Below the pieces are notes generated by a model, which was not told where the DNA came from, made no database searches, and was given only the letters and a program-made list of their open reading frames with translations. A program made the position numbers and the translations under genes. This document shows positions 6,799 through 19,041 of a stretch of DNA of 35,159 nt, one piece after another (position 1 is the stretch's first letter; the number at the start of each line of letters is the position of its first letter). The DNA is taken from NCBI GenBank assembly GCA_029984855.1, contig JARQZL010000033.1, positions 1 to 35,159 on the forward strand, in the 5' to 3' direction. This stretch comes from Archaeoglobales archaeon (GTDB taxonomy: Archaea; Halobacteriota; Archaeoglobi; Archaeoglobales; Archaeoglobaceae).

Positions 6799-7961
6799 CT
6801 GGCACTAACTATTTTAATCACATCGTTGTGCTTGAGCTCGTAATCTTCAGCAATTCTCATCTTTCTCTTTGCGTCGAGAGCATATATAAACCCCTCGCCG
6901 ATTTCTGTATGTATCATATATGCGAGCTGTTTTGCTGTTGTTCCATTCTTCACGAGCATCGCATCCGGCAAGATATTGCCCTTGGAGTCTGTGAACTTGT
7001 TCTCATCTTCAACCGGATAAACCACAATGTAATCAAGCAGATCAAAGACGACAGTGTTTATGGCTTTCTGAACGCCTGTACCCCCATACTTCTCCATGAA
7101 TTCTCTTATCATCCCAAGTGCCTTTTTCTGCTTTTCATTGAGCTCCCTAACCACTTCAAAGTCACTGTCACCGGGAATGTATTTAATATAACCGTTCTTC
7201 GCAGCCATTCGAAGCGTGAATTCAAATGCTGCAGAAGTGGGAATTACTATTTCATCGATGGAGAGAAGCTTTTTCACAAATTCTTCTGGGGCTTTGTCTG
7301 CCTTGTTTGCGGCAATGACGGCTCCCAGTCTTCTTCTTCTCAGCTCTCCCGCAAACCTCCTGAGCTCTTCATCACCGAATTCCATAACCTCACTTCCAAC
7401 AGTTCTAAGTGCTTCTCTCACCTGCCACTCCTTAAAACCAAGACCGGCAAGCTGTTCGGTAATGTATCTGGCAGGATCTCTCTTCTCAAGATGGATTCTT
7501 CTGGCTATCCTGTCCCAGTTCCTCTTCAGAATCCCAAAAAGCCACATATCCAGCTCTCTGTAGAGAAACTCAACATCACTGCAAGGATCGTGCTCTCCAA
7601 CGCCAATCTCGTTTCCTTCCTCGTCTGTTGAACCAGAAGCGTCAATAACATGAATTACAGCTTCGCTCTGCCTGAGGTTGTCCAGAAATTCGTTTCCCAG
7701 ACCTCTCCCTCTGTGCGCTTCAGGCACGAGGCCGGCAACATCAATGAGCTTTACTGGGATGAATCTCCAGCCTTCAATGCAGTTATTGCATTCAATACCG
7801 AGTTCTCTGCATGCACACTCAACACGGACATGGGCAACACCCACGTTCGGTTCGATTGTTGTAAAGGGGTAACTGGCAATTTCAACGTCTGCAAGCGTTG
7901 CAGCCTTAAAAAAGGTTGATTTACCAGCATTCGGCTTTCCGGCGATACCTATCTCAATCAA
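6795..7961 (-). CDS. YchF/Obg-related GTPase with C-terminal TGS domain
   Basis: About 388 residues. The G1 motif GKPNAGKS is at residues 8-15, the G2/G3 region (PFTTIEPNVG, then DVAGLVPEAHRGRGLGNEFL) follows, and G4 is NKAD. NKAD predicts GTP, unlike the bacterial YchF/OLA1 ATPases that carry a divergent G4. The C-terminal 60 residues form a TGS domain (TTAKQLAYMIHTEIGEGFI ... HNDVIKIVSAR). Family members bind ribosomes or RNA. I prefer the TTG at 7961 because GGAG lies 8 bases upstream; a GTG at 7970 would sit inside that site. The gene overlaps both neighbours in the operon. Confidence 0.9.
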   Translation of the reverse strand: MIEIGIAGKPNAGKSTFFKAATLADVEIASYPFTTIEPNVGVAHVRVECACRELGIECNNCIEGWRFIPVKLIDVAGLVPEAHRGRGLGNEFLDNLRQSEAVIHVIDASGSTDEEGNEIGVGEHDPCSDVEFLYRELDMWLFGILKRNWDRIARRIHLEKRDPARYITEQLAGLGFKEWQVREALRTVGSEVMEFGDEELRRFAGELRRRRLGAVIAANKADKAPEEFVKKLLSIDEIVIPTSAAFEFTLRMAAKNGYIKYIPGDSDFEVVRELNEKQKKALGMIREFMEKYGGTGVQKAINTVVFDLLDYIVVYPVEDENKFTDSKGNILPDAMLVKNGTTAKQLAYMIHTEIGEGFIYALDAKRKMRIAEDYELKHNDVIKIVSAR

Positions 7962-8214
7962 TAATACCACTCCTCTCGTATTCCCCTCTTTCTCTCGTCC
8001 CCATTATTCCAAGTTTTTTTACATTTAAGCGAAGAAAAGAAGCATATTCAGGAGTTATTTCCCCAATCCGCTCAAAGTAATTTATCACTTCAGTTGCCTC
8101 TTCTTCTGTTCTACACACCTCGAGGTGATCGAGAACTGTGGGTATTTTACTGCCTTCAAGTTCGTGAAAGAGGTTAGGAAACATCCTCCTGAACTTTTTC
8201 CTGTTCCATTCCAT
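7954..8214 (-). CDS. Small DUF2095-like protein
   Basis: An 86-residue helical, highly charged protein that starts MEWNRKKFRRMFPNLFHELE. It resembles the archaeal DUF2095 family of unknown function, whose members open with a similar charged FP-x-L-x-x-E motif. The ATG at 8214 is preferred to one at 8220 because GGAG ends 6 bases before it. It overlaps the end of the bactofilin-like gene by 41 bp and the GTPase start by 8 bp, so it is translated as part of the operon. The family assignment is from recall of the motif and is tentative; the gene itself is well supported. Confidence 0.7.
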   Translation of the reverse strand: MEWNRKKFRRMFPNLFHELEGSKIPTVLDHLEVCRTEEEATEVINYFERIGEITPEYASFLRLNVKKLGIMGTRERGEYERSGIID

Positions 8215-15354: not shown

Positions 15355-15597
15355 ATGGAGGAGGTCGGAAGGGTCACACACTACTTCAGCCGGATAGGTG
15401 TTGCAGCCATCGTCCTATCGTCCTCCTTAAAGTTAGGGGACAAAATCAGGATAAAGGGAAAAACAACAGATTTTGAGCAGGTTGTGGAATCAATGGAGAT
15501 AGAACACCGGCCTGTAGAACATGCGGTTGCAGGAGACATCGTTGGCATCAGGGTCAGAGAAAAGGTGAGGCCAAAGGATGTGGTTTACCGCCTTTGA
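15355..15597 (+). CDS. Small translation elongation factor-like protein (EF-1A domain II fold)
   Basis: An 80-residue protein that resembles only the beta-barrel domain II of EF-Tu/EF-1A-type factors: RVTHYFSRIGVAAIVLSSSLKLGDKIRIKG, then FEQVVESMEIEHRPVEHAVAGDIVGIRV and a closing KPKDVVYR-like strand. There is no GTPase domain. Stand-alone proteins like this are common in archaea and annotated as translation elongation factor-like; the function is unknown. Its end overlaps the HemK2-like gene by 13 bp in a convergent arrangement. Confidence 0.8.
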   Translation: MEEVGRVTHYFSRIGVAAIVLSSSLKLGDKIRIKGKTTDFEQVVESMEIEHRPVEHAVAGDIVGIRVREKVRPKDVVYRL

Positions 15598-16118
15598 ATT
15601 CTCAAGACATAGAGCTCTTCGAAGAACAGTTTTCTCCTGCCAGCAATACTGTAAGTGTAACCCATCCGCCTTATTTCCTCAAAAATGGACTTATTAAGCG
15701 AGGAGACTACAAGAAGTATTCTTCCGCTCTCTGCAAGAACATCCTTAACTTCATCAAGAAATCTAACCATAACCTCTACACCATTTTTTCCTCCATTCAC
15801 GGCCTTTTCAAGCCAGCCTCCTTTTTTCTCTTCCTCGCTCAACTCGAGATACGGAGGATTGAAGAGTACAAGTGTGAACTTCTTTTTTATTCCTCTGCAA
15901 AGGTCCGTTCTTACAGTATCTATCCCCTTACTTTTCGATTCTTTCACTGCATGGGGCGAAATATCAGTTGCCACAAGGAATTTGCACAGACCCTTAATTC
16001 TTTCCGAGACAAAGCCGCTTCCAACACCTACTTCAAGTACCTCGTCGTCCAGACTTATCTCCCTCATAGCAACCTCAAGCAGCAGCTCAGAGTCCTCTGA
16101 CGGCGGATAGACCTCCAT
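15585..16118 (-). CDS. HemK2/Mtq2-like class I methyltransferase (release-factor glutamine methylase type)
   Basis: A 177-residue SAM-dependent methyltransferase. It starts VYPPSEDSELLLE, has the SAM-binding EVGVGSG (29-35), acidic residues at TDIS and the catalytic NPPY at 87-90. A short N-terminus and NPPY place it with eukaryotic N6AMT1/Mtq2 and archaeal relatives that methylate glutamine in the GGQ motif of aRF1. It is the last gene of the archaeosortase operon, one base behind mptD. The methylase fold is certain; the release factor as substrate is inferred from the family. Confidence 0.88.
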   Translation of the reverse strand: MEVYPPSEDSELLLEVAMREISLDDEVLEVGVGSGFVSERIKGLCKFLVATDISPHAVKESKSKGIDTVRTDLCRGIKKKFTLVLFNPPYLELSEEEKKGGWLEKAVNGGKNGVEVMVRFLDEVKDVLAESGRILLVVSSLNKSIFEEIRRMGYTYSIAGRRKLFFEELYVLRIQRR

Positions 16119-16119
16119 T

Positions 16120-16443
16120 TTATACCAGCCTCATAAGGGGATATCCTGCATCCTCGTCCCATTTCAGAATCGCTACAGCCTTCTTACCTTCAAGCTCAAC
16201 GCATACCCTTGCATACAGCATTTCTGGACTTAAAGAAGTGTACCCGAATGATGATACAGCATTTCTCAGCTTTTCTCTATCTATTCTGACCTCTGCTTCC
16301 ACAACATACGGCTGAAGTTTCATGCAGCTCTCCATTGCCTTTTCGAGCAGCTCAGCATTGGATTCATTAACAGGGGCTCCTACAAACTGGTGAAAAACAG
16401 CCGCAAGCTTTATTCCCGCCTCAAACTCAGCTTCACCACACAT
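16120..16443 (-). CDS. mptD: MptD-type dihydroneopterin aldolase
   Basis: A 107-residue protein of the archaeal DUF372 family, shown in Methanocaldococcus to be the dihydroneopterin aldolase of tetrahydromethanopterin synthesis. Matching features are FEAGIKLAAVFHQFVGAPV, KLQPYVVEAEVRIDREKLR and SPEMLYARVCVELEGKKA. The ATG at 16443 overlaps the end of pssA by 11 bp and follows GGAG closely. This agrees with an organism that uses methanopterin as C1 carrier, as the fwd genes at the other end also show. Its place in a lipid operon appears to be a matter of co-expression. Confidence 0.88.
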   Translation of the reverse strand: MCGEAEFEAGIKLAAVFHQFVGAPVNESNAELLEKAMESCMKLQPYVVEAEVRIDREKLRNAVSSFGYTSLSPEMLYARVCVELEGKKAVAILKWDEDAGYPLMRLV

Positions 16444-17026
16444 ACTCCTTCTTCCCCCATATCGGGCTGAGAACGTAGAGTACAACTGCAAAAAAGACAG
16501 CATAAGCTGCATCAGTTATAAAAAACGATGCGGTTATAATCGCCGCTCCAATTGTGAGAAGTCTGTAGTCCTTAACTCTCAAATATCTGATGTCACTTAC
16601 CATCAAAAGAGATGAGAGCAGTGCAAGAATGCAAACGAGCTGATTGCTAAATCCGAGCAGAATTGCAGGAGAGACAAGAAGTGCTGATGCTGTAACTGGC
16701 AGACCAACGAAATATTCTACTCCAAGAACGTTAAACCTGGCAAGCCTTAAAGCAGAGGTAATTGCATAAAAGCACGCAATTGCAGGATTGTACGGGGCGA
16801 TGAAAAAAGCAGGAAAAACTCCAAAAGAGGTGAGGTCTGCAAGAGAATCAAGCTCTTTTCCGAGTTTTCCGGCAGATTTTCCAGCAATAATGCCGTCAAT
16901 TCCGTCGAAAATGGCTGCAACAAAAACAAAGGAGAGATTGTGAGTGCAAATGCCATAAAATCCGGCAAACAGGTTAAGAAGACTAAATACGTCCGCAAAT
17001 TTCACTTCTCGCAGTATGCTGAACAT
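16433..17026 (-). CDS. pssA: Archaetidylserine synthase (CDP-alcohol phosphatidyltransferase family)
   Basis: A 197-residue integral membrane enzyme with about 6-7 hydrophobic segments that would join serine to CDP-archaeol. The metal-binding region is FDGIDGIIAGKSAGKLGKELDSLAD, with the GKELDSLADLTSFG half typical of PssA-type enzymes. The first half departs from the canonical D-G-x2-A-R: DGIIAG has glycine in place of arginine and the spacing to the second half is unusual. It overlaps asd upstream by 25 bp and mptD downstream by 11 bp. GGTGA lies before the ATG. Archaetidylserine is the expected product, given the adjacent decarboxylase. Confidence 0.88.
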   Translation of the reverse strand: MFSILREVKFADVFSLLNLFAGFYGICTHNLSFVFVAAIFDGIDGIIAGKSAGKLGKELDSLADLTSFGVFPAFFIAPYNPAIACFYAITSALRLARFNVLGVEYFVGLPVTASALLVSPAILLGFSNQLVCILALLSSLLMVSDIRYLRVKDYRLLTIGAAIITASFFITDAAYAVFFAVVLYVLSPIWGKKEYVW

Positions 17027-17592
17027 GATTTCACCGCCACAGTCTCTCCGGCCTTAACTTTTTCCCCCACTTTTCTTACAAATTCATAGCCTTCAGGTAT
17101 CTCAATGACAGTACGTGATCCAAACTTGATGATGCCTATCCTCTGCCCTTTTCTTACAATATCCCCTGCACCGATATAGCAGACTATGCGTCTTGCAAGA
17201 AAACCGGCCACCTGTACAACCTTGAACACTCCATCTTCCGCCTCAATAAGTATCTCGTTTCTCTCAGCCCTGTCGTTTCTCCTGTACGCTGGAGGGAAAA
17301 CTCCCTTCATGTATCTCGTTCTAAGAACAACCCCGGCAACTGGAGAGCGGTTAATGTGGCAGTCAAATGGTCCCATAAATATCTCCATTCTCCTGCCATG
17401 GATATAATCTATTTTACCATCTGCGGGAGCGACAACTCCTTCCTGTATCTCCCTCGGCGGGTCTCTGAAGAAGAAAAGAGTGAAAGCAATGATAAGAGTG
17501 ACGAGGATGCCAAGGTGCGGTGAGTAGCCAAAAAATAATACTGCCAAAGCCCCCTCAACCACCACAAGCCTCAAGCAGCTTCTCTCAATCAT
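17002..17592 (-). CDS. asd: Archaetidylserine decarboxylase proenzyme (Psd-related)
   Basis: A 196-residue pyruvoyl enzyme that turns archaetidylserine into archaetidylethanolamine. Residues 5-42 form one or two membrane segments ending FFRDPPRE. Typical Psd features follow: VVAPADGKID (53-62), FMGPFDCHINRSPV (72-85), RAERNEILIE (108-117) and the self-cleavage site GSR at 158-160, where Ser159 would become the pyruvoyl group. It is the short form of about 200 residues found in archaea and some bacteria. The ATG overlaps the archaeosortase stop by 4 bp (ATGA). Confidence 0.9.
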   Translation of the reverse strand: MIERSCLRLVVVEGALAVLFFGYSPHLGILVTLIIAFTLFFFRDPPREIQEGVVAPADGKIDYIHGRRMEIFMGPFDCHINRSPVAGVVLRTRYMKGVFPPAYRRNDRAERNEILIEAEDGVFKVVQVAGFLARRIVCYIGAGDIVRKGQRIGIIKFGSRTVIEIPEGYEFVRKVGEKVKAGETVAVKSCSAYCEK

Positions 17593-18344
17593 CTTCCCAC
17601 CATAGCTTCTTTCATAGCTTCTTTTAGAGAAAATATAAGCTCTTCGAGTTCCGGCAAAAACCTGAAAACTGCAAAAGATATCAGAATGAGTGCAATCGTT
17701 GCCAGAACTTTCGAAATCACATGATGGGCTATGTAAAAGCTGTTTTCCCCGAACCAGCTATAAGCATAACTTGCCGCAACGAAAACGTTCCTGAGCAAAT
17801 TGAGAATGTATATGACGGGAACTGAGACGGCAAAGGCTTTGAGTTTTCTCTTCCATTCAGCCCTCAAGCCCATCGTTGCACCAAAGAAAAGAGCCATGCT
17901 TTCAATTCCCGTACATGCAAGTACTATCTCAACTTTTCTGGAGTTGGCGTAAACGTGAAATCCATCACTGGTCATCTTAAAACCAAGTATAGAGCCTATA
18001 AACGCAGTTTGAGATGAAACTATGGCGATCAGTATCCTGCCAAGGGATGTAAGGGCGAAGAGGAAGTATGCGATGATTGCAAGAACAGAGAAACCTGTAA
18101 CTTCAACAAAAACACTACTGTTCTTCCTCAAAATAGAAATTGCCAAGCCTGCAAAGAAGAAGAATGCAAGAAACGAAATAATTACGTTGTAGTAATCTGA
18201 TATAGACAGGTAGTACGGTATCTTGAGCAACCACACAAGAGAGAATGCCAGCCATGCAAGGGCTCCAGCCACTTTCAGTTCTGAGAGAATATAGGCCAGC
18301 ATGAGCACAATGGAGAGCACCACAAGGATACCCGATAAAGCCAT
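17589..18344 (-). CDS. artA: Archaeosortase (exosortase-family transpeptidase)
   Basis: A 251-residue polytopic membrane protein with about 7-8 hydrophobic segments. The exosortase/archaeosortase triad is visible in order: Cys144 in VLACTGIESMALFFG, Arg185 in LNLLRNVFVAASY, and a His pair around 207-208 in FYIAHHVISK. Such enzymes cleave PGF-CTERM-like tails and attach the protein to lipid. The ATG at 18344 is preferred to one at 18356 because it lies 26 bp from the TATA box. It heads an operon with asd and pssA. No PGF-CTERM substrate is encoded in the window. Confidence 0.88.
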   Translation of the reverse strand: MALSGILVVLSIVLMLAYILSELKVAGALAWLAFSLVWLLKIPYYLSISDYYNVIISFLAFFFFAGLAISILRKNSSVFVEVTGFSVLAIIAYFLFALTSLGRILIAIVSSQTAFIGSILGFKMTSDGFHVYANSRKVEIVLACTGIESMALFFGATMGLRAEWKRKLKAFAVSVPVIYILNLLRNVFVAASYAYSWFGENSFYIAHHVISKVLATIALILISFAVFRFLPELEELIFSLKEAMKEAMVGR

Positions 18345-18366
18345 GTCTGGCAGCATAATTATGCTG

Positions 18367-18379
18367 TATATAACTTTGC
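18367..18379 (-). promoter_or_regulatory. Promoter of the artA operon
   Basis: On the minus strand GGCAAAGTTATATA has a BRE-like GGCAAA and a TATA box (plus-strand 18367-18373) centred 26 bp before the ATG at 18344. It is expected to drive artA, asd, pssA, mptD and the methylase gene, giving a leaderless first gene. Confidence 0.65.
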
Positions 18380-18417
18380 CTCCAAAAGTATAAATGCATC
18401 CCGGGAGGAGGTTGAAT

Positions 18418-19041
18418 GTGTACGATATCCATATACACTCCCGTTACTCGGATGGAGAGGCAGAGGTAGGCGAAATAGCAAGAAGAGCTAAGGAAAGAGG
18501 GCTCAAGGTCATAGCCATAACCGATCACTCCATAGAACACCCGTTGGGGCTGTCGGAGGGAAAAGCAAAGAGGAGGCAGGAAGAAATAGATGCTGCAAGG
18601 TCAAGATACGATATTGAAATCCTGAGTGGCGTTGAGTGCGGAATAGGAGGCGATGGCGAGATAGCCATGCCTGACTTCGAGTTCGATGTCGTGATCGCAT
18701 CAATTCACGAATGCCTGCCTCCGGAGGAGTACTACAGAAGAATAGAGTTATGCATCAAGAAGTACGAGTTTGATATTCTCGGCCACTTTCACTCAAACAT
18801 CTTCAACAGCTACGAAAGAATTCCTGAGAAAGATGCAGAAATTCTTGATATGCTTGCAGAGCATGATATCGCCCTGGAGATCAATACAGCCCATAGAGCG
18901 CCCCCTCTTGACCTGCTCAATCCAGAGAAAAAGCTGAAGTATTCAATCGGCAGTGATGCACACACACTTTCGAGGGTTGGTGATATTGACTGGGCTCTCA
19001 AAACTGCAAGAGGACTAAGGGGCTGGAGGTTTTTGCTTTGA
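18418..19041 (+). CDS. PHP-domain metal-dependent phosphoesterase
   Basis: A 207-residue PHP protein. The metal-binding motifs are DIHIHSRYSDG at the N-terminus, AITDHSIEH, a mid-chain VECGIG (Glu), HEC and GHFH, and the terminal IGSDAHTLSRVG. This domain hydrolyses phosphoesters; relatives include histidinol phosphatase and nucleoside bisphosphate phosphatases, so the substrate is open. GTG at 18418 is preferred because AGGAGG is 6 bases upstream; an ATG at 18394 would precede that site. The Nudix gene starts inside its last codons, so the two are coupled. Confidence 0.88.
   Translation: MYDIHIHSRYSDGEAEVGEIARRAKERGLKVIAITDHSIEHPLGLSEGKAKRRQEEIDAARSRYDIEILSGVECGIGGDGEIAMPDFEFDVVIASIHECLPPEEYYRRIELCIKKYEFDILGHFHSNIFNSYERIPEKDAEILDMLAEHDIALEINTAHRAPPLDLLNPEKKLKYSIGSDAHTLSRVGDIDWALKTARGLRGWRFLL

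Follow-up and report, generated by a model that had tools for sequence, protein, structure and literature searches.

In Haloferax volcanii, the archaetidylserine synthase PssA and the archaetidylserine decarboxylase PssD are both needed for cleavage by archaeosortase A (ArtA), PssA is needed for lipid labelling, and the two enzymes co-localise with ArtA; the pssA and pssD deletion mutants are viable, and the genes are unlinked in this species (PMC7157517). The artA gene has been described as adjacent to pssA in Methanosarcina and in several methanogens (Haft 2012, as cited in PMC7157517), and pssD has been added to the Methanosarcina synteny, with the genes being unclustered in more than 70 haloarchaea (PMC7157517). 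Evidence on the chemical identity of the lipid anchor used by archaeosortases comes from Haloferax genetics. Here we describe an artA locus on contig JARQZL010000033.1 of an Archaeoglobales archaeon (35,159 nt, referred to in full as the window), in which artA is followed by asd (the pssD counterpart) and pssA. The operon likely makes an archaeosortase together with both of the enzymes that probably supply its donor lipid. A sequence-only reading of the window had drawn on the haloarchaeal need for PssA and PssD in ArtA-dependent anchoring, which the literature bears out (PMC7157517).

The artA, asd and pssA genes form a tight predicted operon

The artA, asd and pssA genes probably form one tight operon, which is predicted to run on into genes for a dihydroneopterin aldolase and a HemK2-family methyltransferase (Table 1). 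Their coordinates confirmed the overlaps of 4 bp between artA and asd and of 25 bp between asd and pssA that the sequence-only reading had given. The aldolase gene in turn overlaps pssA by 11 bp and the HemK2 gene is the next on the same strand; with these two genes the same-strand run extends to 15585, hence the span given in that reading. The single promoter proposed for the three genes also agrees with comparisons within the genus, in which the box GGCAA[A/T]GTTATATACAGCA upstream of artA is common to the window and two congeners (L011 and L012), as is a TATA-box-like element. The only usable artA start in both congeners is the ATG equivalent to 18344. An alternative start at 18356 was dropped on account of this ATG usage and of the TATA spacing of about 25 nt, in favour of 18344, the start given in the sequence-only reading. 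The conserved position of the box and the sole usable ATG in the congeners show that 18344 is right and that the artA transcript probably has little or no leader.

ArtA scored 208.7 bits against TIGR04125 (cut-off 75), and this profile yielded only one archaeosortase in the genome. In an alignment of 20 divergent ArtA sequences (residue numbers follow the 255-aa open reading frame (ORF) starting at 18356), C148 and R189 were invariant, and the third active-site position was H212 in the window and most lineages and Arg in the haloarchaea-like rows; H211 was also conserved. The catalytic residues, whose loss would have spoken against the sequence-only reading, are therefore kept, His212 outside the haloarchaea. 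Asd was over the cut-offs of PF02666 (126 bits) and NF003685 (230 bits, cut-off 183), and scored 203.5 bits against TIGR00164 (cut-off 230). PssA was over the cut-off of PF01066 and under the curated cut-offs of TIGR00473 (99, cut-off 107), NF038087 (94.8, cut-off 240) and TIGR04217 (94.1, cut-off 200). Its motif residues D41, D44, G45, G56, D60 and D64 were invariant among 24 PssA sequences. We call the gene PssA-type from its best match and its conserved place beside asd, and its substrate is predicted on the same grounds.

Possible ArtA substrates are encoded in the same genome, as the sequence-only reading required: a six-frame search found five PGF-CTERM (TIGR04126) proteins over the cut-off, and their tails include KKQPGFEAVFAIAGLLAVAYLVRRR and RPVPGFEALFAIAGLITAAYLLRRR. 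Three of the five were also at or over the cut-off when the predicted proteins were scanned with hmmscan. A further protein tail, MPEFGAILAIIAMLAALVVRKEY (L008:1058-1105, on G000:C29), resembles a PEF-CTERM signal and not a PGF-CTERM one.

In the mechanism that we propose, PssA would couple serine to CDP-archaeol to give archaetidylserine (AS), and Asd would decarboxylate AS to archaetidylethanolamine (AE). The Cys-Arg-His site of ArtA would then cut the C-terminal PGF tail off exported proteins and hand the new C-terminus to the lipid, presumably through the lipid amine, so that S-layer-type proteins are fixed in the membrane. If the genes are co-transcribed, production of the sortase would stay in step with that of its donor lipid. 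By analogy with H. volcanii, we infer that the products of PssA and PssD serve ArtA; the amine would be the nucleophile, and AE rather than AS the presumed final donor.

The linkage extends across Halobacteriota

To place this operon, we compared artA neighbourhoods among relatives and across the phylum. The artA, asd and pssA genes were each essentially single-copy in 60 relatives; each Archaeoglobaceae genome has one copy of each, and within this family they were found together. The order artA-asd-pssA was observed in 75 of 80 named loci, with the contig ending inside the remaining five; the named loci are those with ArtA most like that of the window, a list biased to near relatives, and include records of Archaeoglobus, Geoglobus, Ferroglobus, Methanocellales, Methanoperedens, Methanococcoides, Methanohalophilus and Argoarchaeum. 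Such recurrence argues that the gene order is not due to chance. Both genes were mapped in 128 genomes of the phylum, and in 91 of these asd was no more than 1.5 kb from artA. The adjacency held without exception in the mapped genomes of 11 families, 34 of 34 Archaeoglobaceae among them, and in none of those of the haloarchaea-like families. Linkage is thus not confined to one strain, and these comparisons indicate that it is old, widespread and ancestral, and tight in Archaeoglobi and numerous methanogen lineages.

The sequence-only reading had regarded the direct genetic linkage as new, which does not hold, as artA-pssA and artA-pssA-pssD synteny has already been published for Methanosarcina and several methanogens (PMC7157517). 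What is new here is the extent of the linkage and its presence in Archaeoglobi; the linkage itself was known. The same gene order is present in genomes that we take to be those of A. fulgidus and of further species sequenced long ago.

Throughout the phylum, loci with the linkage usually carry the dihydroneopterin-aldolase gene 3' of pssA, as a stable companion. Individual loci vary in other ways. In a Methanohalophilus record (L116:7370-8053), the pssA frame is split (7370-7525 and 7535-8053) by a frameshift or a sequencing error. At L155:5871-7306 in genome G133, the asd ORF and artA share about 170 bp, and a second, larger phosphatidylserine decarboxylase lies elsewhere (C3, 428-aa frame).

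Several observations weigh against the operon as a source of the sortase and its donor lipid. The operon also carries folate-type and methyltransferase genes, and so is not dedicated. The haloarchaea lost the linkage yet kept the function, and one genome of Archaeoglobaceae (G025) keeps artA next to asd but has pssA and the aldolase gene at a distant chromosomal site; because both do without it, co-transcription is not required. PssA scores a little below the curated cut-offs, and in the Archaeoglobus-type PssA the motif Ala is not followed by the customary Arg, the position being Gly, Thr or Lys in the three Archaeoglobaceae rows of the alignment. Finally, the anchor lipid in this organism is predicted from genes, and pssA and asd may mainly feed the bulk membrane. 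Since they are the sole copies in this genome, linkage alone cannot tell a donor for ArtA from a bulk membrane lipid.

This last point bears on the main rival explanation, that the three genes are an ancestral housekeeping cluster, in which PssA and Asd supply bulk AS and AE, have no special donor role and owe their place next to artA to history. The single pssA and single asd per genome and the unrelated genes in the same run would fit such a cluster, as would the making of AS and AE in archaea not known for ArtA: enzymes of Methanothermobacter are cited in PMC7157517, and Methanocaldococcus has matches to PF02666 and none to TIGR04125. Order and overlaps are kept across 11 families, however, beyond what is expected for unrelated genes, and H. 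volcanii, with unlinked genes and viable deletion mutants, still depends on PssA and PssD for ArtA processing (PMC7157517). We consider the housekeeping explanation improbable and retain the operon as a likely source of both the sortase and its donor lipid.

In the G025 genome (loci L046 and L047), the pssA-aldolase pair is about 1.6 Mb away in record coordinates, and in another genome of the same genus (L073) asd and pssA are separated by an additional gap.

Archaeosortase in lineages without PssA and PssD

The phylum draw comprised 197 genomes, 165 of them of good quality, and ArtA was present in all 165. A phosphatidylserine decarboxylase was found in 121 of the good-quality genomes and was missing from 44, and the same two counts were obtained for a PssA-type synthase. 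PssA was absent from nine families (f6, f9, f11, f13, f16, f17, f23, f24 and f25), as was the decarboxylase except in genome G099. PGF-CTERM proteins over the cut-off were present in 30 of 30 genomes tested, including members of all nine PssA-less families, so that ArtA appears to work there without AS or AE. The sequence-only reading suggested AE or AS as the lipid of attachment outside the haloarchaea too, which is plausible in the organism studied here and fails for about a quarter of the ArtA-bearing genomes of the phylum, those without PssA and PssD. In these lineages ArtA must use another lipid, if it is lipidating at all.

Six of the families (f6, f13, f16, f23, f24 and f25) are referred to below as Methanomicrobiales-type and f11 as Methanocella-type, on the assumption that G151 is Methanoculleus marisnigri, G089 Methanoregula boonei, and G047 and G056 Methanocella. 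Aminopentanetetrol lipids have been reported in Methanomicrobiales, and one member of this order reportedly lacks a headgroup that other methanogens have (PMC2686161, PMC6423904, PMC11346949). A Methanospirillum S-layer protein carries a PGF-CTERM domain (PMC11641113). Among the artA neighbours checked in f11, f17 and f9, no lipid-donor gene was found; these neighbours were thiamine genes in f11, Cdc6 and TYW2 in f17, and ACT/DUF5612 and AsnC in f9.

Two genomes of a haloarchaea-like family (G055 and G132, f15) encode ArtA and match PssA-type synthases, G055 only weakly, with no phosphatidylserine decarboxylase; in these, AS itself or another decarboxylase may serve.

CapX, a candidate substitute for PssA

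The best candidate maker of the lipid in PssA-less genomes is a CDP-alcohol phosphatidyltransferase for which we coined the label CapX. By its own profile CapX was found in 45 of the 197 genomes and PssA in 145, and no genome had both, with 33 expected if the two were independent; neither was found in seven genomes, six of which are drafts of f7. The Fisher value of this exclusivity (2e-37) ignores kinship and carries no meaning as a probability. CapX lies tail-to-tail with artA, often overlapping it, in 29 of 30 loci of the Methanomicrobiales-type families, and it does not adjoin artA in f9, f11 and f17.

That the gene tail-to-tail with artA is a divergent PssA was ruled out, because its best match is archaetidylinositol-phosphate synthase (AIPS; NF040950) and it forms a family of its own. 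AIPS is the nearest named relative of CapX and shares with it the motif D..DG..AR and D...D, while CapX remained under the NF040950 cut-off (97-120 bits versus 180) and showed 26-34% identity to aligned AIPS-like paralogs. Unlike AIPS, CapX carries the near-invariant stretch NTFIKPV.YAE...GKI.DPLEGVGFFGRPET, and a separate AIPS-like paralog was present in addition to CapX in the two genomes checked. In openly licensed papers, we found no report of an archaeosortase-linked CDP-alcohol phosphatidyltransferase other than PssA.

Complementary distribution and adjacency make CapX a candidate donor-lipid maker where PssA is absent. We tentatively suggest two donor routes for ArtA, namely PssA with PssD in most Halobacteriota, often in the artA operon, and CapX replacing the pair in the Methanomicrobiales-type and Methanocella-type groups and two others, where it may make an aminopentanetetrol-type or other amino-lipid anchor. 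It is about equally conceivable, and likewise doubtful, that the exclusivity is a lineage effect, in which a few methanogen clades lost PssA and PssD and hold CapX for another purpose. A lineage effect is favoured by the ArtA tree, on which the CapX/PssA label needs only three changes and strongly supported branches force only one, so that independent events are few, and by the position of CapX away from artA in f9, f11 and f17; the CapX link is a correlation only. Against a lineage effect, CapX occurs in four separated PssA-less groups (Methanomicrobiales-type, f11, f9 and f17), with PssA lineages between some of them, and its adjacency to artA is nearly constant in the first.

We find it rather unlikely that ArtA is not lipid-specific and takes whichever amino-lipid dominates the membrane, with PssA and PssD or CapX just making the amino-headgroup that prevails in the lineage (AE or an aminopentanetetrol-type one). 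The lack of co-occurrence of PssA and CapX and the reported aminopentanetetrol lipids of Methanomicrobiales (PMC6423904, PMC11346949, PMC2686161) would be expected under such a scheme, but in Haloferax, where AE and AS are only minor lipids (PMC8305020), PssA and PssD are needed nonetheless, and the CapX-artA adjacency in the Methanomicrobiales-type families hints at a role beyond that of supplying the membrane at large.

CapX as a candidate alternative donor-lipid enzyme is the most interesting outcome of the survey, and its complementarity with PssA is the part worth following. The survey names lineages where the AE model cannot apply, with CapX as a specific gene there, and the question of which lipid ArtA attaches becomes a comparison of two groups of organisms.

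Features of the locus

The coordinates of the operon and its surroundings are collected in Table 1. The PHP-domain gene, a neighbour outside the system, is divergent from artA in many relatives as well.

Table 1 Features of the artA locus in the window.
Feature	Position	Strand	Evidence and remarks
artA, archaeosortase A, 251 aa	17589..18344	minus	TIGR04125; start picked by genus comparison; ORF readable from 18356
asd / pssD, archaetidylserine decarboxylase family, 196 aa	17002..17592	minus	PF02666, NF003685
pssA, archaetidylserine-synthase-type CDP-alcohol phosphatidyltransferase, 197 aa	16433..17026	minus	PF01066, TIGR00473, NF038087, motif residues
Dihydroneopterin aldolase, probable fourth operon gene	16120..16443	minus	PF04038, 127.5 bits; 3' of pssA in most relatives
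HemK2/MTQ2-family protein methyltransferase, probable fifth gene	15585..16118	minus	TIGR00537, 195.7 bits (cut-off 87); same position in L040 and L060
TATA-box-like element TTATATAC	18366..18373	minus	About 25 nt upstream of artA start; conserved in window, L011 and L012
Divergent PHP-domain gene, start possibly GTG at 18418	18394..19041	plus	PF02811, 64.5 bits; neighbour, outside the system

Comparison with known systems

The locus shares with the H. volcanii ArtA-PssA-PssD pathway the three protein families, the PGF-CTERM signal, and the invariant Cys and Arg of the archaeosortase. The two differ in the third active-site residue, which is Arg in the haloarchaea-like ArtA rows and His in the ArtA of the window, and in gene arrangement, as the genes are scattered in haloarchaea and clustered in the window. 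A likeness in arrangement is seen in the Methanosarcina synteny, which has the same three-gene neighbourhood, and the Methanosarcinales-type loci scanned by profile show the order artA-asd-pssA. Unlike that synteny, the genes of the window overlap and are followed by the aldolase and HemK2 genes, and they belong to a different lineage.

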